This document shows, piece by piece, positions 52,781-63,928 of a stretch of DNA of 64,000 nucleotides (position 1 is its first letter; the number at the start of each line of letters is the position of its first letter). The stretch covers positions 588,162-652,161 of the forward strand of contig JAMOUJ010000005.1 of NCBI GenBank assembly GCA_027068075.1, written 5' to 3'. A program made the translations under genes and the position numbers. The stretch is from Candidatus Aminicenantota bacterium. GTDB lineage: Bacteria; Acidobacteriota; Aminicenantia; S016-38. The notes beneath the pieces were generated by a model. That model worked only from the letters and a program-made list of their open reading frames with translations. It was not told where the DNA came from and made no database searches.

Positions 52781-53170
52781 ATGAGTGCGGGGATCTTTAC
52801 GGCAACAGGGATTATCTTTTTGGTGGTGTTTCTTCTTATAGGAGCCCTTTTCCTTTGGGTAGGGGCTAAGGTCGCTAAAATAGCCGGAGCCACCTTTGGA
52901 AAGGCGTTTCTGGCGGCTCTTCTGGGAGTGGTAGCCGGGCTTATTCTGGGTCTGGTTCCGGCCATCGGATGGCTCCTGGGAATAATTGCCTACATCATCA
53001 TTATCAAGTATGTGTTCAACACCGATTGGGGCAAGGCCATAATCGCATGGCTCATAGCCTTCGTGGCCAGCCTCATCGTGGGCTTCATCCTGGCCAAGGT
53101 TTTCGGAATTACCCTGTTTGCTCTGGGTAAGGCCGGGGCTTCTGCTGGGATGCTTTATCTTCTCACATAA
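52781..53170 (+). CDS. Small membrane protein of unknown function
   Basis: A 129-residue protein with about four hydrophobic helices (IIFLVVFLLIGALFLWVGA; LGVVAGLILGLVPAIGWLLGIIAYIIIIKYVF; IIAWLIAFVASLIVGFILA; ITLFALGKAG). It is glycine/alanine rich with few charges. I recognise no family. A strong AAAGGAGGTAAAC site precedes the ATG, 2 bases after cmk. Its 3' end overlaps the convergent exchanger gene by 16 bases. Confidence 0.75.
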   Translation: MSAGIFTATGIIFLVVFLLIGALFLWVGAKVAKIAGATFGKAFLAALLGVVAGLILGLVPAIGWLLGIIAYIIIIKYVFNTDWGKAIIAWLIAFVASLIVGFILAKVFGITLFALGKAGASAGMLYLLT

Positions 53171-54198
53171 GACTTTCTTCTAACTTCTCGTACACCCAGT
53201 AGGTATTCTTCTGCTTCCAGCAGGAGAAGGACCAAACTGAAGGCGGCCAGGTATTGCTTCGGGAAATGCTGGGGGAAGTGGACGCTGAAACTCAAAATCA
53301 TGGCCACAGATAGGGGGGAAAGGGATAGGAAGCCCTTTTCCCCCAAAACCACTCCGTATAGGGTTTTAAGGGCGAAAAATAACAGGGCCAACCCCAGGGC
53401 CTTCCAGGTTAAGTAGGGGAAGGATGTAAAGCCCAGGTAGAGCAGCAGGAAGATGAAGATGGGTTTTTCCATGGGAATTAACCTGGGGATCATCCTTTCC
53501 GTTCCCACCAGTTTGGGCAGGTTGGCGTAGAGGAGTCCCGAGGCGAACCCCACGAAGATGGGGGAAAGAAGGAGGAAGGAGGAGGTGCCGGAGGAGAACA
53601 GGAGAAGCCCCAGGAGCAGGGCGTTTACCTCACCGGGGGTGGCCTTTATACCCAGGGAAATGTAGGCTATGGCTCCGAAAATCAGGGCCAGACCCAGGTG
53701 ATAAACCAGGGAGGTGAAAAAATCCCCCCTGGCCAGGGAGAATATGATGGCTAAGAAGGGAATACCCAGGATTTCCCATAAACCCACCATGGCCCTCTTT
53801 TCTTCGTCTACCCCGTAAAGGGAGACCAGGGATAGGGCCAGCCCCAGGGCAAGGGCTGGGAGAAGGGCCCTTGTCAACAACCAGGATACCAAGAAGAAAA
53901 AGAAAAGGGTGGGGAAGAAATAGATGACGGGTCTTCGGAAGTCCACCCTGGCCCTGAGCCTGGCGAGGTCCAGGGCAGCCCCTTCTAAGAATCCCACCAC
54001 CCCCAGGGAAAGAAGTAAGAAGGGAGACAACACCTCCATTTTCCCATTTAGAAGGGGATAGAAGGCGAAGCCCACCAGGACATAGAAGATGACCATCATA
54101 GGATAGGTGGCCCTCTCCATCCTGAGGACCTTCTTGCCCACCACTATCAAAAAGGTTATGAGCAGAAGGGAAAACAGAATTTTTACGGGAATGTTCAA
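53155..54198 (-). CDS. Cation/proton exchanger-like membrane protein (CPA2-like)
   Basis: About 347 residues with ten or more helices. Repeated small-residue helices (LALGLALSLVSLYGVDEEKRA; GLLLFSSGTSSFLLLSPIFVGFASGLLYANL) resemble Na+/H+ or K+/H+ exchangers of the CPA2/Kef type. I cannot locate a clear ion-binding aspartate pair, so function is tentative. The track starts at an ATG at 54222, but the TTG at 54198 has AGGGGGG 6 bases upstream and overlaps the flavin-reductase stop as TTGA, so it is preferred. Confidence 0.65.
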   Translation of the reverse strand: MNIPVKILFSLLLITFLIVVGKKVLRMERATYPMMVIFYVLVGFAFYPLLNGKMEVLSPFLLLSLGVVGFLEGAALDLARLRARVDFRRPVIYFFPTLFFFFLVSWLLTRALLPALALGLALSLVSLYGVDEEKRAMVGLWEILGIPFLAIIFSLARGDFFTSLVYHLGLALIFGAIAYISLGIKATPGEVNALLLGLLLFSSGTSSFLLLSPIFVGFASGLLYANLPKLVGTERMIPRLIPMEKPIFIFLLLYLGFTSFPYLTWKALGLALLFFALKTLYGVVLGEKGFLSLSPLSVAMILSFSVHFPQHFPKQYLAAFSLVLLLLEAEEYLLGVREVRRKSYVRR

Positions 54199-54716
54199 GG
54201 CTTCCCCCCTGAGAATCCCCACCTTTCCAATTTCTTACCCACCGAAAAATATCCCATGGAACTGTAGGAACTGACCACGAAATCTTCGGGGGTTGCCCCT
54301 TCCCTGGCCCAGGCCTTCCTGACCTCTCCCAGGATCAGGATGTGATCGGTGAATTTTACCTCTTCCAGGTAAACCACCTCCAGGGAGAGGGGGGCATCGG
54401 CAATTCTGGGGGAGTTTATGGTGGAGGAGGGTTCCCACCGGAAAAGGTCGGATTTATCGTGCCTTCTTCCGCTTAAGAGCCCCGCAGCGTCCGCCCGGCG
54501 GAGCATGGGGGGATCCACGAAGTTTACGGAAAAATCTCCGGTTTCCTTTATCATCCGGTAGGTATGTCTTTTTTCCTTTATCCCGATCCCCACCACCGGT
54601 GGATGCTCGTTGAACTGGCCGAAGAAAATGTAGGTGGAGGGATTGGGCTTCCTGCCGGAGACCACCACTACCAGAGGATAGGGGGCGGGATACTGGGGAC
54701 GGAGCCATTCAATCAT
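54195..54716 (-). CDS. Flavin reductase-like domain protein
   Basis: A 173-residue protein of the flavin reductase/FMN-binding split-barrel type: PYPLVVVVSGRKPNPSTYIFFGQ at the start, PPVVGIGIKEKRHTYRMI and SVNFVDPPMLRRADAAGLLSGRRHDK follow the fold's FMN-contact order. Such proteins supply reduced flavin or act as small NAD(P)H:flavin oxidoreductases. It overlaps the alcohol dehydrogenase gene by 8 bases, so the two could form a redox pair. The substrate is unknown. Confidence 0.85.
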   Translation of the reverse strand: MIEWLRPQYPAPYPLVVVVSGRKPNPSTYIFFGQFNEHPPVVGIGIKEKRHTYRMIKETGDFSVNFVDPPMLRRADAAGLLSGRRHDKSDLFRWEPSSTINSPRIADAPLSLEVVYLEEVKFTDHILILGEVRKAWAREGATPEDFVVSSYSSMGYFSVGKKLERWGFSGGKP

Positions 54717-55836
54717 AGGCCGCCTCCAGAATTCTTCTCAGATCATCCCGGGAAAGGTCAACGCTTTCCAGGCGGCGGTGACTGGTTTCCCAGGCCTTTC
54801 CCTCCACCGCCTTCAGGTCCCGGGCACCCAGTTCCTTCAGGGTCTTGTGAAGCCCCCATTCCTTCATCCATTTTTCAAACTCCCCCAGCCCTGTGTTCCA
54901 ATGGTAAACATCAAACAGGGCCTTGGTGAGGGAAGAAACCCTCCGGGGCCTTTTCTCCGCTACGATTTTCAGGTAAGGAATGAGAAGGGCCGCCAGTCCG
55001 CTTCCGTGGCTTATGTGGTCGTAAATTCCCGAAAGGGCGTGTTCTATGCCGTGCAGGACGAAGTGGCCGCCCCTTCCTGCCGAGAGGAAGGGGGATATGG
55101 CCAGGGTGGATGCCCAGCAGAGGTCGTCCATGCTTTCCTTATCCCCCCGGGATACCCTTTCCCAGGATTTCATGACGGTTTTGACGATAACTTCGGTAAA
55201 GCCGTTCTGAAGGGTGGCTTCATCTCCGGAGATGTAGCCCTCCAGGGCGTGGGAGATAATGTCCACCACCCCATCTCTTAGGACGGAGGAGGGAAGGGTG
55301 TGGGTGAGGAGGGGATCCCATACGGCTATCCTGGGCCAGAAGGCCGGGGAAAAGAGCCCTCTTTTCTCCTTAATCTCGGGATTGGAAAGCACCGCAAAGG
55401 GATCCGCTTCTGAGCCCGAGGCCGGCACGGTAGGGATGGCCACCAGCGGAAGGGAAGTTGAAAATTTCTTTTCCCCTGTCACATATTCCCAGGGCCTTCC
55501 TCCGCTTGGGACCAGGGCCGCTACGAACTTGGAGGCGTCCATGACGGAGCCACCACCCAGGGCTATAACCGCATCCACCCCTTCCCGGCGGGCCAGTTCC
55601 ACGCCCCTTTCCACTTCTTCCACTTTGGGATTGGGGGTTATTCCGTTGAAGTGAACGATTTTTTTGCCTTCCAGGAGTTTCCTCAACCGGTCCACCAACC
55701 CAAGTTTTTTAGCGGAGTTTCTGCCGGTTACCAGGAGGAAACTGTGGCCCAAGGGGGAAATTATTTCTCCCACACGGTCAAAGGCCCCCCTGGAGAAGAT
55801 TATCCTGGTGGGAAAGGTGAATTCAAATTTTCTCAT
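54709..55836 (-). CDS. Iron-containing alcohol dehydrogenase
   Basis: A group III (Fe-ADH) enzyme of about 375 residues starting at the ATG at 55836 (MRKFEFTFPTRIIFSRGAF). The NAD(P)-binding GGGSVMDASK is present, and the metal ligands are in the HALEGYISG and VLHGIEHALSGIYDHISHGSG regions. It resembles butanol dehydrogenase-like proteins; the physiological alcohol or aldehyde is unknown. The ATG is 6 bases after a TATAAT box with no Shine-Dalgarno, suggesting a separate leaderless unit with the flavin reductase and exchanger genes downstream. Confidence 0.92.
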   Translation of the reverse strand: MRKFEFTFPTRIIFSRGAFDRVGEIISPLGHSFLLVTGRNSAKKLGLVDRLRKLLEGKKIVHFNGITPNPKVEEVERGVELARREGVDAVIALGGGSVMDASKFVAALVPSGGRPWEYVTGEKKFSTSLPLVAIPTVPASGSEADPFAVLSNPEIKEKRGLFSPAFWPRIAVWDPLLTHTLPSSVLRDGVVDIISHALEGYISGDEATLQNGFTEVIVKTVMKSWERVSRGDKESMDDLCWASTLAISPFLSAGRGGHFVLHGIEHALSGIYDHISHGSGLAALLIPYLKIVAEKRPRRVSSLTKALFDVYHWNTGLGEFEKWMKEWGLHKTLKELGARDLKAVEGKAWETSHRRLESVDLSRDDLRRILEAAYD

Positions 55837-55842
55837 AGGGAA

Positions 55843-55848
55843 ATTATA
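55843..55848 (-). promoter_or_regulatory. -10 element for leaderless alcohol dehydrogenase
   Basis: Perfect TATAAT on the reverse strand, 6 bases before the ATG at 55836. TAGAAA at a 17-base spacing is a weak -35. It lies in the 32-base gap after the M14 gene. Confidence 0.5.
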
Positions 55849-55868
55849 TAAATTGGCGGTGTGGTTTT

Positions 55869-58800
55869 CTACCACGCGGGCCTTATCAATTTCTGGGTTA
55901 TTTCAAAGGTAGTTCGGTGAAATATCTCCATGGTTTTCTTCCCATGCCTCTGGAGAAAATCGGCGTGGGCTTTCAGGTATTTTAACCCGCAACGGATAAG
56001 GTAGCGGAGAAAATCGCCGGAGGCGGTCTCGTCCATGAATTCCGGAACCTCCCGGGAAATGGGAACGGTGGATTTCAACTCCACCTTCCTGCCGTCTTTC
56101 CAGTAAACATTGTAGTTCTCCAGAACTTCCACGCGGAAGGCGTGGGGATTCCACCGCTGGGCCCAGCGGTAATACCTTCCGTAAAGCCTTCGGTTGAACC
56201 GCCTTATTTCCGGGTCCGAAGACAGGGTTTTCGCCAGGAACCTCAGCAATTCCATGCTCCTGGTGGAAAATTCCCTGTTCAGAGGGTTTTCCCGGGAGGA
56301 GAAGTAGAAGAAATGTCCCCGGGGTATCCAGTAGTTTCTGTAGGGAAAGGGCAAGTAGCCGGTGAACTGCTGGACCCATTCGTGGGATGGGTAGCCGTGG
56401 AGGTTCAGGAATATGTCCGCCTTCCACCTCTCCTGGATGGTGGCCCGGGCGTAACCCTCCGGGGCGTAAGGGAAGAATTCTTCGGTGTGGTATCCGATGT
56501 CCGTACCCAGGGCGTTGTATCTGCCGGCGTGGAGGGAGTGGAGGGGACTTTCCCTTTCCATCATCTCCAGGGCCAGTTGGGCGCCGTCCGGATTTTCCAC
56601 CGGAATGGCGGCGTAGTTCACACCCCTGGGAGGGGAGCCCATGAGGAACCTCAGAAGATAGGAGGTGGAAGAAACTTCGTTGGCGTGCTGGCGGGCGTTC
56701 AGCAGGAGGGTGGGTTTTTGGAGGTTGAAGTGGGAGGGGGAGTATCTGGGGCCGATGGCGGTGAGCCTTTCTACGGCCACAATCCATCTTCCCAGGAAAC
56801 TTTCCGCTATGGGATAGGCGAAGCCCGCCTTCTCCGCAAGACACCGGGCCTGGTCCGGGGAAAGGGGAGCCTCCCAGCGGGGTTTTGCTCCGGAGCAGGT
56901 GGGTTTTTTAAGTTTTCCTTTCAGGGAGAAACTCCTCGTTCTCTCCCTGAACTTCAGGGTAAGGATGATGTCTGTGGGGAATTCCACCGTTTTTATCCTG
57001 GAAAATCCCCGGCCGTAGAGGACGAAATCCTCTTCCTTTTCAAATTCAAGGCTTGCCCACAGGTTTTGTGGTCCCCATCCAAGGAGTTGGAGTTTAATCC
57101 TTCCCAGGGGATAGAACCTGGAAAGTTGCCTTTCCCTGAGGTAAACCCCGGGTTTTCGGTAATCGTAAACCTTAATGGAGAACTTCATTCCCCGGGGGGA
57201 GGTTTTCGCATAGGGAAGGATGGCCCCGGGGAAGATGTGTTCCTTGAGTTTTCCTCCCTCCTCCGTGGGCTTCAACATTTTTGAGACGAAGTATAAGGTG
57301 AAGAAGTACAGTTCGTCGTGGAGGGCCTCCGTGGTGCTCACCAGTTCCTGCCCCAGACCGAGTTTCATGTCGGGCTCCGGAGCCTGAAAATCCATTTCAA
57401 TGTAGGAGAAAAAGGGTTGTTTGTCCCAGGTGGGGTTTCCCCGGGTCCTTTTCATTATGAAGTTCCAGAGCCAGGGGAGGAATTTCTGCCTGTAAAATTC
57501 CCAGGCCAGTTCGGGATCGGTTTTTATCCGCCTGGAAAGCACCGTGGACTTTCCCCGCCAGGCGGTAACCCATCCCTCCACCCGGGGAAAGGGATCCCTC
57601 ATCACGGGAGGGTCAAGTTCAAACCTTCCCATGGATTTTCCTCTGGTGAAGGCCTCCACCGCATAAAGGGGGCCGCTGTCCTCCAGGACGAATTCTATCC
57701 TTTCCAGGGGGATTCCCAGCCTTTTGGACAGGATTTCGTCCACGGGGTAGAGTTCGTAGAGGAATTGATTGGGCGAGGAGGTGATTTCTCCCCCCCGGCC
57801 TGGCTTAACCCTTTTTACATGGATTACGATGCGGTCCGCCCCCTTTATCTTCGGCAAAACCTCCTCCAGAATCCAGAAGAGCCCGGCTTTGTAGGCCGAG
57901 CGTATCTTCACCCGTCCCCCAAATTCCCTTTCCAGGCTTCTTCTCCGTTCCGGGGATTCGCTCAGGTAGGCCAGGGCTCTTGTGTAGTTTTTCCCCTTCA
58001 GGATCTCCTTCAATCTTTCCCCTTCGTCCTTCTCCTCTATTTCCCGGGAATAGACCAGAACCTTTCCGTAGGTTTCCCCGGAAATATAAGGCCTTCCGAT
58101 GTGCTCTCCCAGCATGGCCCTTTGGGCCGCCGGGGGCAGGGCGAACCTCATTTTCTCCAGGAAGAACCTTGAAAAATACAGATTTTTTTCCTTTCTCAGA
58201 GCCGGAAAAAGGAAGGAAGAGGAGAAGTTCTCTGCACATTCCGGCCGAAGAAACCAGAAGGTTTTTCCCCTTTCCAGGCATAGGCCGTGGGTTTCTTCCA
58301 CCGCCCTGTGAATTTCGGTGAGCCTGCCCATCCCCAGAACCACGGCGGTCCTTTCCGGGGGGAGGTTTTTCTCCGAGAGATAAACGAAGGGGAAGTGGGC
58401 TTCGGTTGTTGAAAGCCCTGCCCGGAAGGCAAAATCTATGGCTCCCCTCCCCGCTTTCCTTTCCAGGATTAGAGCCAGGGGGGAGGAGAAGAGCCTTTCC
58501 AGTTCCGGAGTCTTTCTCCTTTTTTTGCCGGGAAAGACCCCGTAGGAAGGTTTCAAAAATTCCTCGGGACTCCCCCACCTCTCCAGGGAAACTCTGTTCT
58601 TTCCGGAGATGAAGGTGAGTTTTCTTATGTAGGGAAAATTGAGGGCATGGGGATTTTCTCCCCGCCTTCTATCCCGGGATAGTTCTCTAAGGTATTTTTC
58701 AAGTTTCCTGAAGTTACCCCTGACCTGGAAGGCCGCCTCCAGCACTTCCCCCCTTTTCTGGTAGGTGGAGAAGGTGGGAGAGACTTGTCCGATTATCTTC

Positions 58801-59288
58801 ACCCACTTGAGGCTTAACTTTACCCCGATCCCTTCTTTCCGAAGTTCCCCTTCCATCCTCTTTATCGCCCGGGTCCATGTAAGGCTTCCAGCCCCTTCCA
58901 CCTTCCAGAGATAGGGCCATCTCCAGAAGAATTCCCGGGCCGCCAGCAGGCCCTGGTTGTCGTTTCCCTCAATCAAAATGTTCCTTCCCTCCAGTCTTAC
59001 CGCCCCCACCCCCCGGGGAAGTTCCCTGTTTCTGCGGAGGATTATTCTGGCTTTATCCTGGCATTGGTTGAAATCCACATATTCTCCAGAGTAAAGACCG
59101 AGTTTGTAGGCCACCTCCGAAGCCACCGCCAGTTGGACCAGGTCCTCCGGCTGAAGGGAAAAACAATATCGGGATGCGTCGTATAAGCCGTCTCCGTTGG
59201 AATCCCTGAGGACCATAGAAACGAAGTTTTCAAGACCCGCCGCCATGGAGTAGATAATGAAAATCACGAAAACCAAGGCCTTTTTCAT
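55869..59288 (-). CDS. Large secreted M14-family zinc carboxypeptidase
   Basis: A 1139-residue exported protein (signal peptide MKKALVFVIFIIYSMAAG). The peptidase domain is near the C-terminus: the zinc motif HxxE in RQHANEVSS (about 866-870), PVENPDGAQLAL (substrate Asn-x-Asp region), second zinc His in NLHGYPSHEW (about 963), and a candidate catalytic Glu in FRVEVLENY (about 1053). The first roughly 800 residues have no family I recognise. It probably cleaves peptides outside the cytoplasm. It is the last gene of the GNAT-M24-SSS operon; the start overlaps the upstream stop. Confidence 0.87.
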   Translation of the reverse strand: MKKALVFVIFIIYSMAAGLENFVSMVLRDSNGDGLYDASRYCFSLQPEDLVQLAVASEVAYKLGLYSGEYVDFNQCQDKARIILRRNRELPRGVGAVRLEGRNILIEGNDNQGLLAAREFFWRWPYLWKVEGAGSLTWTRAIKRMEGELRKEGIGVKLSLKWVKIIGQVSPTFSTYQKRGEVLEAAFQVRGNFRKLEKYLRELSRDRRRGENPHALNFPYIRKLTFISGKNRVSLERWGSPEEFLKPSYGVFPGKKRRKTPELERLFSSPLALILERKAGRGAIDFAFRAGLSTTEAHFPFVYLSEKNLPPERTAVVLGMGRLTEIHRAVEETHGLCLERGKTFWFLRPECAENFSSSFLFPALRKEKNLYFSRFFLEKMRFALPPAAQRAMLGEHIGRPYISGETYGKVLVYSREIEEKDEGERLKEILKGKNYTRALAYLSESPERRRSLEREFGGRVKIRSAYKAGLFWILEEVLPKIKGADRIVIHVKRVKPGRGGEITSSPNQFLYELYPVDEILSKRLGIPLERIEFVLEDSGPLYAVEAFTRGKSMGRFELDPPVMRDPFPRVEGWVTAWRGKSTVLSRRIKTDPELAWEFYRQKFLPWLWNFIMKRTRGNPTWDKQPFFSYIEMDFQAPEPDMKLGLGQELVSTTEALHDELYFFTLYFVSKMLKPTEEGGKLKEHIFPGAILPYAKTSPRGMKFSIKVYDYRKPGVYLRERQLSRFYPLGRIKLQLLGWGPQNLWASLEFEKEEDFVLYGRGFSRIKTVEFPTDIILTLKFRERTRSFSLKGKLKKPTCSGAKPRWEAPLSPDQARCLAEKAGFAYPIAESFLGRWIVAVERLTAIGPRYSPSHFNLQKPTLLLNARQHANEVSSTSYLLRFLMGSPPRGVNYAAIPVENPDGAQLALEMMERESPLHSLHAGRYNALGTDIGYHTEEFFPYAPEGYARATIQERWKADIFLNLHGYPSHEWVQQFTGYLPFPYRNYWIPRGHFFYFSSRENPLNREFSTRSMELLRFLAKTLSSDPEIRRFNRRLYGRYYRWAQRWNPHAFRVEVLENYNVYWKDGRKVELKSTVPISREVPEFMDETASGDFLRYLIRCGLKYLKAHADFLQRHGKKTMEIFHRTTFEITQKLIRPAW

Positions 59289-59755
59289 TGGATTTCCCCC
59301 GTTTGGTTTAATATGAAGTCTATTATCATCTCTCTGGCAAAAAGATTTTCCTTTTTCCCCGTCACCCCATCAAAGACATCCAGGGAGTAGCCGGAATTTT
59401 TTCTCCTGTAATAAACGATGAAGGGATAGAGCACCCTCTCCAGGAACTCCAGCCGCATCAATCTGGCCTTGAAGAAGAGGCTCAGGGGAAACCTGGCCTC
59501 GGGCATGAGGATTTCCCTGGCTCTGGAGGGGGAAATTTTCGCCGGGAAATCTTCCCTGGCTTCCCGGGCTTGTCGCAAGAGGGAGTCGCTTATCCGGAGG
59601 GTTTTTCCCCTGAGGGCGTCCACCATGTAAAGGAGTTTTCTTCCGGTGGAATAATGCGCTGCAAAAAGGTAAAAGGGCAGGTGGATTACCTCCTTTTTCA
59701 GGTAGGAAGAGGGGGTTTTTTTGCCCTCGTCCGCCGAAGGAAGTATGACCTTCAT
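59285..59755 (-). CDS. Hypothetical protein in the SSS-M14 operon
   Basis: A 156-residue soluble protein, basic, with several aromatic residues (HLPFYLFAAHYSTGRKLLYMVDALRG; LERVLYPFIVYYRRKNSGYSLDVFDGVTG). No signal peptide or membrane segment. I recognise no family. The two repeated 'F..Y/A..Y..G....Y.VD...G' stretches suggest a small internal duplication. It overlaps both neighbours by four bases, so co-translation with the small membrane protein and the M14 peptidase is likely. Confidence 0.7.
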   Translation of the reverse strand: MKVILPSADEGKKTPSSYLKKEVIHLPFYLFAAHYSTGRKLLYMVDALRGKTLRISDSLLRQAREAREDFPAKISPSRAREILMPEARFPLSLFFKARLMRLEFLERVLYPFIVYYRRKNSGYSLDVFDGVTGKKENLFAREMIIDFILNQTGEIQ

Positions 59756-59931
59756 TTCCGCCGGTGGTCCAGGTAGAAAAACAACCCGGCCATGGCCATG
59801 AGAACGGCTCCGGATATCATGTTGGTGGCCCGGGAGATCTTCTCATCCACCAGGAAACCCGACAGGAAAACTATGAGCCCGAAGGTCCCCCAGAAGGCGG
59901 CGACGATGGCGAAGGCCCTTAATTTTTTCAT
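59752..59931 (-). CDS. 59-residue membrane protein
   Basis: Not in the ORF track. The ATG at 59931 follows a GAGGT site 6 bases upstream and ends with TGA overlapping the next ATG (ATGA). Two hydrophobic segments: LRAFAIVAAFWGTFGLIVFLSGFLV and MISGAVLMAMAGLFFYL, then a basic end DHRRK. It is probably a small accessory membrane protein. The function is unknown. Confidence 0.65.
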   Translation of the reverse strand: MKKLRAFAIVAAFWGTFGLIVFLSGFLVDEKISRATNMISGAVLMAMAGLFFYLDHRRK

Positions 59932-59939
59932 GTTTTACC

Positions 59940-60143
59940 TCAGAACAGAAAATAAAGAATTATTTGAATCCCTATGAGAACCAGGGCCCAGAGCCTGAGG
60001 TCCCTCCACCGGCTTTTATCCTCCGTTCCCCGGAAGATGAAGTCCCGGGGTCGGGTTATCACCCACAAGCCCAGCAGCAGATAGAGGAGGGCGGCGATTA
60101 CCTTGGCCCAGTAAAGGGGAAGTCCCCTGAAAAAATCACCCAT
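59940..60143 (-). CDS. 67-residue membrane protein following the SSS symporter
   Basis: A small protein with two helices (AKVIAALLYLLLGLWVIT and LWALVLIGIQIILYFLF) separated by a charged loop (DKSRWRDLR). The start overlaps the last 8 bases of the symporter gene in another frame, supporting a real coupled gene. Position and size suggest a small subunit or assembly factor for the symporter, as seen with other SSS proteins that have short partners, but this is inference. Confidence 0.7.
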   Translation of the reverse strand: MGDFFRGLPLYWAKVIAALLYLLLGLWVITRPRDFIFRGTEDKSRWRDLRLWALVLIGIQIILYFLF

Positions 60144-61653
60144 TTATCCTCCTCTCCACGGCCCTTTTGAAATCCTCGTCCTTTTCCAGATAACCATACA
60201 CCAGTCCCCTCAACTTCTGGGGAGGTTCCGGGGGTGTAAGGTAACTTACCACCACATTGACCACGAGGGAGAAAACGAAGGACCACCAGGCCACATAAAG
60301 AAAATTCACCTTCAGCACGGAGAGGAACACCGCCAGAAGCACCCCGGAGGTCAACCCCACCAGGCCTCCCCATCCGGTGGCCCTCCACCACAGGACCCCC
60401 AGCAGGAGGGTGGCCAGGGTGGGGCCCTGGAAAAAGGAAAGCAGGGTCTGCATGGCCACATATATCCCGGGGAATTTTTCCGTAAACGGAGCAAAAATTA
60501 CCCCGAAGACTATGAAGGCAAAGGTTAAAATTCTTCCCACCAGGAGGTAATGCCGATCCGAAGCATCCCTTTTGATGTACCTTTGATAAATATCCCTGGT
60601 CCAGAGGGTGGCGGCGGAGTTCAGGGTGGAGTCCACGCTGGAGTGGAGCGCCGCTATAAAGGCCACAAAGACGAGGCCTCCAATTCCCGGGGGAAGGAAG
60701 TTTTTAACAACCCAGGGCAGGGCCTGGTCTGGGTTTTTTATGGTCCCGGGAGGGGCGAACATGAGGGCAAAGAACCCGGGCAGGACCACCAGTATGGGAA
60801 TCAGGGTTTTGGGAAAGGCGGCAAATAGCATCCCTGCCCTGGCGTCCCATTCGCTCCTTGCCCCCAGGGTTCTCTGGATTATGGACTGGTTGGCGCACCA
60901 CCAGGCCGGGGATAGGACCAGACCCAGGCCCAGGATCATACCAAGCCAGGGGTAGGCGGGATTGTCCAGGGGAAGGAAAACCTGAAGGTGCTGGGGATGG
61001 GCGGCCTTGAGGGCGGCGAAGAATTTGAGGACCCCTCCGGCCTTGGCAAAGCCCACCGCCGCCACGGCAAAACCCCCCACGAACATTATTCCCAGTTGGA
61101 CCACATCGGTTATGGCCACCGCCGCCAATCCGCCGGATATGGTGTAAAAACCCACCACGATGGCGGTTATCACTATGCTAAATCCTATGGACCATCCCAC
61201 ATAGGTATGGAGCATTATTCCCGAAGCCCAGAAGAAAATCCCCAGGAGCATCACCAGGAAGACACCGTAAATTACCGCCTCAATGACCCTCACCGCCTCC
61301 TTGTATCTTTTGCCCAGGTATTCCGGCACGGTGTAAACTTTGTTTTTCCAGTAATAGGGAATTATCACCAGGGCGGAGACTATCATGGCGGGGATTGCCC
61401 CCAGCCACTCGTAGTTGGCCTGGGCTATTCCGAATCGGTAGGCCCCTCCGGCGGCCCCCACATAATCGTAGGCCCCTATATTGGTTCCTATGATGGACAT
61501 GCCTATAACCCACCAGGGAAGGGCTCTTCCTGCCAGGAAGTAGTCCTCGGTGCTCTTGACATATTCGCGGAAGAGAACTCCGAAGAGAAATATGGCGCCC
61601 AGATAAACTATTATCAGGAAGAGGTCCACATGCTGGGCTAAGACTTCCTTCAT
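60136..61653 (-). CDS. Sodium:solute symporter, SSS family
   Basis: A 505-residue, about 13-14-helix transporter. SSS features: STEDYFLAGRALPWWVIGMSIIGTNIGAYDYVG near the start, YTVPEYLGKRY, FYTISGGLAAVAITDVVQLGIMF at about 170-190, and FIAALHSSVDSTLNSAATLWTRDIY in the second half. The substrate is unknown; SGLT-type sugar carriers and amino-acid carriers share these features. It overlaps the M24-like gene upstream and the 67-residue protein downstream. Confidence 0.92.
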   Translation of the reverse strand: MKEVLAQHVDLFLIIVYLGAIFLFGVLFREYVKSTEDYFLAGRALPWWVIGMSIIGTNIGAYDYVGAAGGAYRFGIAQANYEWLGAIPAMIVSALVIIPYYWKNKVYTVPEYLGKRYKEAVRVIEAVIYGVFLVMLLGIFFWASGIMLHTYVGWSIGFSIVITAIVVGFYTISGGLAAVAITDVVQLGIMFVGGFAVAAVGFAKAGGVLKFFAALKAAHPQHLQVFLPLDNPAYPWLGMILGLGLVLSPAWWCANQSIIQRTLGARSEWDARAGMLFAAFPKTLIPILVVLPGFFALMFAPPGTIKNPDQALPWVVKNFLPPGIGGLVFVAFIAALHSSVDSTLNSAATLWTRDIYQRYIKRDASDRHYLLVGRILTFAFIVFGVIFAPFTEKFPGIYVAMQTLLSFFQGPTLATLLLGVLWWRATGWGGLVGLTSGVLLAVFLSVLKVNFLYVAWWSFVFSLVVNVVVSYLTPPEPPQKLRGLVYGYLEKDEDFKRAVERRING

Positions 61654-62795
61654 TTTACCAGTATCTCAGGAACGGGAAATTTCCTGCCCCTAAATTCCAC
61701 AAAATGATATGGCCACCTGCCCGTATATGTCAAGACCTCCACCCCCTTTTCGGTTACCAGGACCGTATCCTCCACCTTGGCCCCGGCCAGGGTGGGATTG
61801 AAGGCGAAGGCCTGGTTCAAGTGGACCCTTTCCCGGCTATTACCCGTCACTATGAATTCCCGTTCCGCATATCCGATTCCCCCTCCCTGGTGGTGGTTCT
61901 TCCACTCCCCGGGATAGCCCAGCCTCTCGTAAAGGGCCACTGCCCGGGTGAAGACTTCCGAAAGGTTTGAGCCAGGGGTGAGACCGTATAAAAAGGCGGC
62001 GTATACCTTCTCTGCCACCTCCTGTCTCCTCTTTATTTCCTCCGGGAGGGGACCGAAGTGGACCAGCCTCGTGAGGGCCACCACCAGACCGTATTTCCTG
62101 GCGCATATGTTTATCTGGGCGTATTTGCGAAGGATTCTTCCCCGGGGTATAACATGTCTGTACTTCATTATCCCCTGGTCCACGCCTATGAGGAGAACCG
62201 TGGGAACTAATCCCCTTTTGAAAAGTTCGTAGGCCACCCGGGCCCTTATTGCTTCTTCGCTCATCCCTGGCTTTAGTTCTCGGGCCGCCTTCTCCGCTGC
62301 CTCCGCCGCCAGGCGGGCTACCTCCCTGTACCTTCCCACCTCCTGTGGGAGAAGTTGATACCTGAGCCTCTTCAATTTGTCCCCCACGAAAACAGTGCCT
62401 TCCCTGGGGAGGTCTGAGCCTATTTTGGGGCCTCCGTATTCCCGGGCCAGTCTCAGAACCTCGTCCCCCTCCACCCCCTTGTACCAGGGATAACTGAGGA
62501 CCTTTACGGGAAAACCCTTGAGTTCTTCCTGGGTGAACCTGGGCACCTCGTCGTTGGGGGCTATGAGGAAAAACGCCCCGGGGGTCACCAGCAGGGATAC
62601 CGCCCCCTGCTCCGAACTTATGACCACCGTGCTGGTTCCCCCGCCGGTGAGCCAGGAGAAGTTCCTCTGAGACGAAAGCAGGACCGAGGAGAGTTTTTCC
62701 TTTTCCATAAAATCCCTAAGTTTCTTAAGTTTGGTCTGGAACTCCCCTCCCATTATGAGAAGGGAGAAGACCGCCAGGGCGAGCAATTTTTTCAT
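61650..62795 (-). CDS. Exported M24 (Xaa-Pro peptidase)-like protein, probably without metal site
   Basis: The ATG at 62795 begins a signal peptide (MKKLLALAVFSLLIMGG) and has GGGGGGAA upstream; 381 residues. The creatinase-like N-terminal domain (FSWLTGGGTSTVVISSEQGA) is followed by a pita-bread fold (AAEKAARELKPGMSEEAIRARV). In active M24 enzymes two Asp ligands lie in a 'D.G....SD.TRT' stretch. Here the region reads INICARKYGLVVALTRLV, so both are lost, while HHQGGGIGY and VEDTVLVTEKGVEVLT remain. It is probably a non-peptidase or uses another chemistry. Confidence 0.82.
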   Translation of the reverse strand: MKKLLALAVFSLLIMGGEFQTKLKKLRDFMEKEKLSSVLLSSQRNFSWLTGGGTSTVVISSEQGAVSLLVTPGAFFLIAPNDEVPRFTQEELKGFPVKVLSYPWYKGVEGDEVLRLAREYGGPKIGSDLPREGTVFVGDKLKRLRYQLLPQEVGRYREVARLAAEAAEKAARELKPGMSEEAIRARVAYELFKRGLVPTVLLIGVDQGIMKYRHVIPRGRILRKYAQINICARKYGLVVALTRLVHFGPLPEEIKRRQEVAEKVYAAFLYGLTPGSNLSEVFTRAVALYERLGYPGEWKNHHQGGGIGYAEREFIVTGNSRERVHLNQAFAFNPTLAGAKVEDTVLVTEKGVEVLTYTGRWPYHFVEFRGRKFPVPEILVK

Positions 62796-62821
62796 GGGAA
62801 ATTCCCCCCTTCCTTCAAATT

Positions 62822-63928
62822 TCAAAATTCCTTGTCAAATATCCCGAATTCCTTATACCTCCGGGCTCCCATGTCCAGGAGGATTTTGTTCATCTGGTAG
62901 TTGTTGTCCAGGATCCATCCCAGATCCGCCTCCCGGTATCCCTTCCTCAGTCCCTCCTGGATGGTCCGGTAAATCATGAGGGCCTCCAGGCCCCGGAGTC
63001 GGAATTTTTCCCGAACTCCCATGGCATAGGTCCTCAGTCGGTATATCTCCTTTTTGTGGATGAGGAGTTTGATCAGCCCAAAGGGGAAGAGGCGGCCGTT
63101 GGCGTATTTTAAAATCTGGTTGAAGTCAGGAAGGGAAAGGGAAGCGCCGGCGGGCTCGCCGTTGATTTCGGCGAAGAATACCAGGTCAGGGTCTATGACG
63201 GGCTTGAGTTCCTTGGCGATGTGCTCTATCTCCTCGTCGGTCAGGGGAACGAATCCCCAGTTCTTTCCCCAGGCTTCGTTGTAAATAAGTTTGAACCTCT
63301 CAATCTCCTTCCTGAATTCTTTCATTCTGGCCTTCCTCACATTTATCTTCTTTAGCCTGGCCTCGGCCACCCTTTTCAGTTTCTCCGGGATGGGCTGGTC
63401 CTTGGTGAGTTTATAGGCGTAGAGGGTTCTCACCAGGGAAAGCCCATAGTCTTCAAACAGGTTCAGATAATATCTGGGATTGTAGGTGTATTCAATCACC
63501 GGCGGGGAGTCAAAGCCCTTCATCAAAAGGCCGCAGGTTTCGTTGGTGGAGAAGTTCATGGGACCCCTCATCCTGTCCATTTCCTTTTCCCTGAGGTACT
63601 CCTCCGCCTTTTCAAAGAGGGCTCGGGAGACTTCTTTGTCGTTTATGGACTCAAAGAAACCGAAAAAACCCGTCTTTTCGTTCCAGTATTCGTTGTGGCG
63701 GAAGTTTACGAAGGCGGCTATCCTCCCCACCACCTCTTCGTCCTTCAGGGCCAGGAAATACTCCACCTCGGCGTGCTTGTGGAAGGGATGGCGTTTTCTA
63801 TCCAGGAGTTTTTTTACATCGGAAATAATAGGTGGCACCCAGTTGGGGTCTCCCCGGTAGATCTTCCAGGGAAGCATTATAAATTTCTTCAGGTCCCTTC
63901 GGTTCTCAACCTTCTTGATTTTTACCAT
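62822..63928 (-). CDS. GNAT-fold acyltransferase-like protein
   Basis: A 368-residue cytoplasmic protein. The N-terminal half (KKFIMLPWKIYRGDPNWVPP) and the C-terminal half, with GEPAGASLSLPDF and a long GNAT-like stretch RLRGLEALMIYRTIQEGLRKGYREADLGW, resemble the YghO-type family of GNAT-like proteins that are common and mostly uncharacterised. Start with GAGAGGTGAGCG upstream. It is the first gene of the operon that continues through the M24-like protein and SSS symporter. The substrate is unknown. Confidence 0.8.
   Translation of the reverse strand: MVKIKKVENRRDLKKFIMLPWKIYRGDPNWVPPIISDVKKLLDRKRHPFHKHAEVEYFLALKDEEVVGRIAAFVNFRHNEYWNEKTGFFGFFESINDKEVSRALFEKAEEYLREKEMDRMRGPMNFSTNETCGLLMKGFDSPPVIEYTYNPRYYLNLFEDYGLSLVRTLYAYKLTKDQPIPEKLKRVAEARLKKINVRKARMKEFRKEIERFKLIYNEAWGKNWGFVPLTDEEIEHIAKELKPVIDPDLVFFAEINGEPAGASLSLPDFNQILKYANGRLFPFGLIKLLIHKKEIYRLRTYAMGVREKFRLRGLEALMIYRTIQEGLRKGYREADLGWILDNNYQMNKILLDMGARRYKEFGIFDKEF

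Follow-up and report, generated by a model that had tools for sequence, protein, structure and literature searches.

What is the functional unit of a gene run in which a sodium symporter and two tiny membrane proteins sit between peptidase-like genes, and what does its symporter carry? The question arises from a 64,000-nucleotide stretch of Candidatus Aminicenantota DNA (the window), for which the sequence-only reading had described seven tightly packed genes. All seven ORFs are indeed present, on the minus strand (Table 1), overlapping by 4-8 bases except at the 8-base gap between the genes for the 67- and 59-residue proteins (p67 and p59), and Pfam support within the run comes from matches to GNAT (above cut-off), M24, Creatinase_N and SSF. 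Because their proteins are conserved across phyla, p67 and p59 can be taken as genuine genes. The chain of overlaps continues past M14 through genes for an iron-containing alcohol dehydrogenase, a flavin reductase-like protein and a 355-residue membrane protein, an extension that the earlier reading missed; the order of these three is retained among relatives in the genus.

Table 1. Genes of the run and of its continuation past M14, in window coordinates.
Gene	Coordinates	Strand	Features
GNAT	62822-63928	(-)	Pfam Acetyltransf_1 above cut-off; GNAT-like, genus-level neighbour
M24	61650-62825	(-)	TTG start, ATG at 62795 likely; creatinase/prolidase fold, secreted, family-level addition
SSS	60136-61653	(-)	SGLT-type Na+/solute symporter, 505 aa, TM0-TM12, without C-terminal TM13
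p67	59940-60143	(-)	67-aa two-helix membrane protein
p59	59752-59931	(-)	59-aa two-helix membrane protein, second of module
p156	59285-59755	(-)	156-aa soluble protein, signal-less, probably tandem PepSY-like
M14	55869-59288	(-)	M14-like secreted peptidase, genus-level neighbour
Fe-ADH	54709-55875	(-)	Iron-containing alcohol dehydrogenase; Pfam Fe-ADH E=2e-49
Flavin reductase-like	54195-54716	(-)	Pfam Flavin_Reduct E=3.9e-23
355-aa membrane protein	53155-54222	(-)	ORF, no Pfam match

The whole run is retained in the four genomes of the host genus, as far as their contigs reach. In the sister genus (g2) M24, SSS, p67, p59 and p156 are contiguous in all three genomes, with GNAT elsewhere in each and M14 likewise elsewhere, found in two of the three. 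Only SSS-p67-p59-p156 are left in G008 (JdFR-78), which belongs to another family of the class; here they lie directly behind a galactokinase gene, and M24 and SSS are on different contigs. GNAT occurs throughout the class (39 of 40 relatives) and joins the symporter module solely within the host genus, M24 adjoins SSS only in the host's family (7/7 genomes), and M14 is across the class a stand-alone gene for a protein of ~1300-1600 aa with variable, unrelated neighbours. The placement of M14 and GNAT elsewhere in the sister genus, and the survival of only four genes in G008, therefore indicate that the seven-gene operon was put together at the level of the genus, around a four-gene core that is older. 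The proposal that all seven genes form one envelope system, which was to be judged by conservation of their order, holds in part: the four-gene core is kept across phyla, and the seven-gene unit is lost beyond the genus. As a functional unit the seven genes were consequently rejected beyond that level, GNAT and M14 being unlinked there and M24 unlinked beyond the family. The M24 and M14 genes are merely local neighbours of the conserved four-gene module.

When named genomes were scanned with the SSS alignment, 28 loci came up, spread over Aminicenantes, WOR-3, KSB1, Chitinispirillaceae, Phycisphaerae, Eisenbacteria, Gemmatimonadota, CSSED10-310 and unnamed bacteria; the named relatives recovered in this way put the host among Candidatus Aminicenantes. 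Linkage was counted by profile searches of these loci together with those of the host family itself, provided that the contig continued beyond SSS; p67 was found at all 26 such loci, p59 at 25 and p156 at 22. Two KSB1-type loci (L167 and L168) have the order p59-p156-SSS-p67, which shows that linkage of the four genes survives rearrangement. At these same two loci a nitroreductase-like ORF comes next. Searches with the p67 profile, made independently of SSS, gave 20 matches in 396 genomes of Acidobacteriota and 21 in 392 of Planctomycetota, every one adjoining SSS, even where identity of the symporter drops to 37-49%; SSS lies beside the p67 gene in 49/49 loci. The second small membrane protein, p59, is present in each of the 22 Acidobacteriota p67 loci and is missing from many divergent Planctomycetota loci. 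The suggestion that the small membrane proteins partner the symporter is supported by these searches, as the p67, p59 and p156 genes travel with SSS.

The symporter itself is of the SGLT type. It matches Pfam SSF at E=7.6e-61 (206.6 bits against a cut-off of 22.8), among solved structures its closest matches are vSGLT and SGLT1/2 (PDB vSGLT, E=1.4e-71), and its AF2 model (pLDDT 83) finds SGLT2, SGLT1 and vSGLT as its best folds in Foldseek, with a TM-score of 0.86 and E=2e-21 for SGLT2. With vSGLT, the Na+/galactose symporter (SSS/SLC5) of Vibrio parahaemolyticus, it has a common fold and ~30% identity. The serines of the Na2 site (vSGLT S364 and S365) are invariant across the 28 SSS sequences and so, among the residues that contact galactose in vSGLT (Q69, E88, N260, K294 and Q428; PMC8037263), are E88 and K294, Q428 being kept in 24 of the 28. 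Two differences from vSGLT stand out. That protein is a single polypeptide with a C-terminal TM13, whereas the symporters of the clade have no TM13, and at four vSGLT sugar contacts (Q69, S91, N260 and Y263) the clade has, almost without exception, D, G, S and W.

The gene neighbourhood also bears on the solute. In other phyla a galT-galK pair follows the module at L156 and L160, galK precedes it at L171, and elsewhere it stands beside glycoside hydrolases of families GH2, GH9, GH20, GH29 and GH127 or related enzymes, all of these being plain occurrences counted without a control frequency. No carbohydrate gene lies next to the module in the host's family. The host does have a galactokinase-family gene, located away from the module (G000:C2:195464-195607; L200:8496-9629). 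From carrier type and neighbours we infer that a sugar is taken up; galactose would be the best single candidate, although another sugar is quite possible. Indeed, since the four contact changes relative to vSGLT are fixed, the substrate may not be galactose, and we put only a little short of even the chance that the clade carries some other sugar-like solute such as a sugar acid, an amino sugar, a disaccharide or a polyol. This would suit both the altered and nearly invariant pocket, with its aspartate in place of Q69, and the varied hydrolases (GH9, GH20, GH29 and GH127) found nearby, but it fits less well with metabolic neighbours that, where they recur, are galK and galT.

The M24 protein (Pfam E=6.7e-16) had been described as a defunct peptidase, and its defect is real: against Pyrococcus prolidase (1wy2) the metal ligands read N231, A242, G307 and N335, with E344 alone kept, and four of the five ligands (D, D, H, E, E) are replaced in all eight homologues. 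The subgroup (window 61650-62825; L143:9615-10826) has motifs YRH216, HHQGG, NPT and EDT at the active-site region, invariant in eight genomes. It is conceivable, although we lean against it, that loss of the metal site has not abolished activity and that the protein is a creatinase-type, metal-independent hydrolase acting on a solute related to the symporter. The invariance of these polar motifs despite the four lost ligands, and the linkage to SSS throughout the family, would be accounted for in this way; yet the gene is unlinked to SSS outside the family, and a binding role is equally possible.

The absence of TM13 from the symporters of the clade is matched by the presence of p67. Same-class SGLT-like symporters without a p67 gene have a hydrophobic helix at the C-terminus (...LNIIFW, ...LYIIFW), whereas the p67-linked proteins end in a polar tail without a C-terminal helix; the maximum hydropathy of the tail over 18 residues is at most 0.51 in 45 p67-linked sequences, which include a few from overlapping loci, and at least 2.22 in 22 p67-less ones. 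In the AF2 model the last membrane helix of the window's symporter spans residues 451-472, corresponding to TM12 in SGLT numbering. When the p67 profile is compared with full-length p67-less SSS it lands unprompted on the C-terminus (E=4e-5), and hhalign places its second half on columns 514-539 of 546 (26 columns, E=1.3e-5). None of 300 class-preserving column shuffles reached the score of the real alignment (at most 20.9 against 32.9), nor did any of a separate 100. The match is gone when the C-terminal helix is removed from the p67-less SSS, and no C-terminal match is seen between p67 and the p67-linked SSS. In a tree of 81 SSS all 58 p67-linked sequences fall in one clade (support 0.957), placed among TM13-bearing symporters. 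Comparison of p67 with PDB SGLT chains gave no significant match, so the TM13 homology rests on bacterial relatives.

Because p67 and TM13 are complementary, the match to that helix comes from p67's second half, and the p67-linked symporters form a single clade, p67 most likely carries a detached TM13 plus one extra helix. On these sequence comparisons the simplest reading would be one split event, in which TM13 was moved to, or replaced by, a separate gene also encoding a new first helix. We do not claim that this first helix is a copy of TM12, as the full-profile alignment covers helix 1 but helix 1 alone scores E=0.18 and the first half of p67 has no match in the p67-less SSS profile. Two other candidates were rejected: p59 as donor of TM13, since it has no match to that helix, and a frameshift or split ORF, since p67-linked symporters have polar tails of their own and, across phyla, p67 starts at a separate initiation codon and includes an extra helix.

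Small genes, mostly for two-helix proteins, are known beside SSS genes: DUF485 (YjcH, with ActP), DUF4212, DUF997 (YhdT, with PanF) and DUF3311 (with MctP). These precedents in other SSS subfamilies allow that p67 and p59 are ordinary accessory or regulatory subunits of the YjcH/DUF485 type, that the loss of TM13 is coincidental and that p67 replaces nothing. Similarity of p67 to the symporters is confined to one helix and does not extend to PDB SGLT chains, as such a reading would have it, but the complementarity between p67 and TM13 is complete, the profile match is specific to the C-terminal helix alone and unmatched in the 300 shuffles, and the p67-linked symporters share one clade, all of which makes coincidence unlikely. 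Nor do p67 and p59 belong to the families named: p67 has no convincing Pfam family among its matches at E<=0.5 and none in NCBIfam, p59 has no confident one among the matches listed, and DUF485, DUF4212, DUF997 and DUF3311 appear in neither set.

It is thus likely, in our judgement, that the functional core of the locus is a four-gene Na+/sugar uptake module, composed of the SGLT-type symporter, p67, p59 and p156, in which the second helix of p67 fills the TM13 site. With somewhat less assurance we favour the fuller view that this is a naturally split SGLT, an obligate two-polypeptide carrier whose TM13 resides on a separate p67 that also adds a MAP17-like helix; p59 and the PepSY-like p156, the latter in the cytosol, would be further conserved but undescribed subunits or regulators.

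The fourth protein, p156, is confidently modelled (AF2 pLDDT 90.4, pTM 0.84), and its model has no match among PDB folds at E<=0.001. Its repeat pattern suggests two PepSY-like units: like PepSY domain proteins it shows helix-hairpin units with VDAxTG-like ends and a weak profile similarity, which is detected in six of 19 members (best E=0.0088), reaches E=0.0011 with a PDB PepSY chain (9vy3) and lies below family thresholds. It differs from PepSY proteins in the absence of a signal peptide, in this sub-threshold score and in its recurrent linkage to SGLT genes. Within the phylum 23 of the 24 matches to the p156 profile stand beside an SGLT-like SSS, 19 of the 24 at p67-SSS loci, and one weak match is unrelated. 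Four p156 genes (L261-L264, in genomes G385, G060, G352 and G251) lie directly behind a TM13-bearing SSS without p67, one of them (L264) being followed by a galactokinase gene, and the association of p156 with SGLT carriers therefore extends beyond the p67 clade.

How the pieces would work together can be sketched. If p67 is inserted so that its R/K-rich loop faces the cytosol, as the positive-inside rule predicts, its C-terminus would be outside and its second helix would run from inside to outside, as TM13 does. That helix would then fill the TM13 site and complete the transporter, and the first would lie alongside, positioned like MAP17 on human SGLT2, where the single MAP17 helix packs on TM13 and the way in which it supports the carrier is still debated (PMC10803289). 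The human SGLT2-MAP17 (PDZK1IP1) heterodimer is likewise an SGLT carrier with a small membrane subunit, but MAP17 has one helix and SGLT2 a TM13 of its own, whereas p67 carries a pair of helices, the second of which resembles TM13; homology with MAP17 is not claimed. Sodium flow would drive the uptake of a hexose, in all likelihood galactose or a sugar close to it, that glycoside hydrolases may have freed and galactokinase would phosphorylate. A further membrane subunit would be provided by p59, and p156, as a cytosolic PepSY-like partner, may have a regulatory or stabilising effect on the carrier. In the host genus the module has become part of a longer transcription unit whose GNAT, M24, M14 and redox genes do not belong to the transporter.

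The carrier falls within a known family. No description of a split SGLT, or of p67, p59 or p156 as companions, was found in the literature searched, which excluded preprints and most subscription papers. SGLTs are textbook examples of transporters as well as targets of drugs. If the split is real, a clade that keeps TM13 on a small subunit apart from the carrier would offer a natural experiment for learning what this helix and its partner do in folding, stability or gating, and two unannotated families of membrane micro-proteins, together with a PepSY-like family, would be identified as sugar-transporter components in many uncultured phyla.

The last gene of the original seven, M14, scores below the Pfam cut-off (12.3 against 21.6 bits) and has its zinc ligands H868, E871 and H964 (HxxE...H) in all 19 homologues, so that, as far as sequence can tell, it is probably an active peptidase. 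A scan of the genome contigs with a single M14 sequence returned no match. The idea with which the locus had been introduced, that secreted M14 frees residues which the M24-like protein binds and the symporter with its small partners imports as amino acids or peptides, has in its favour a tight run that is conserved in the genus, an M24 gene that remains with SSS in the family and signal-like sequences at the start of both peptidase-like proteins, but it was discarded as very improbable given an SGLT-type carrier with sugar contacts, the carbohydrate neighbours of the module elsewhere and the absence of M14 and GNAT linkage outside the genus. Irrespective of the symporter, M14 belongs to a class-wide family of very large secreted M14-like proteins (~1300-1600 aa; L038-L050 and window 55869-59288), in which intact zinc ligands are combined with an uncharacterised N-terminal region of at least 800 residues.
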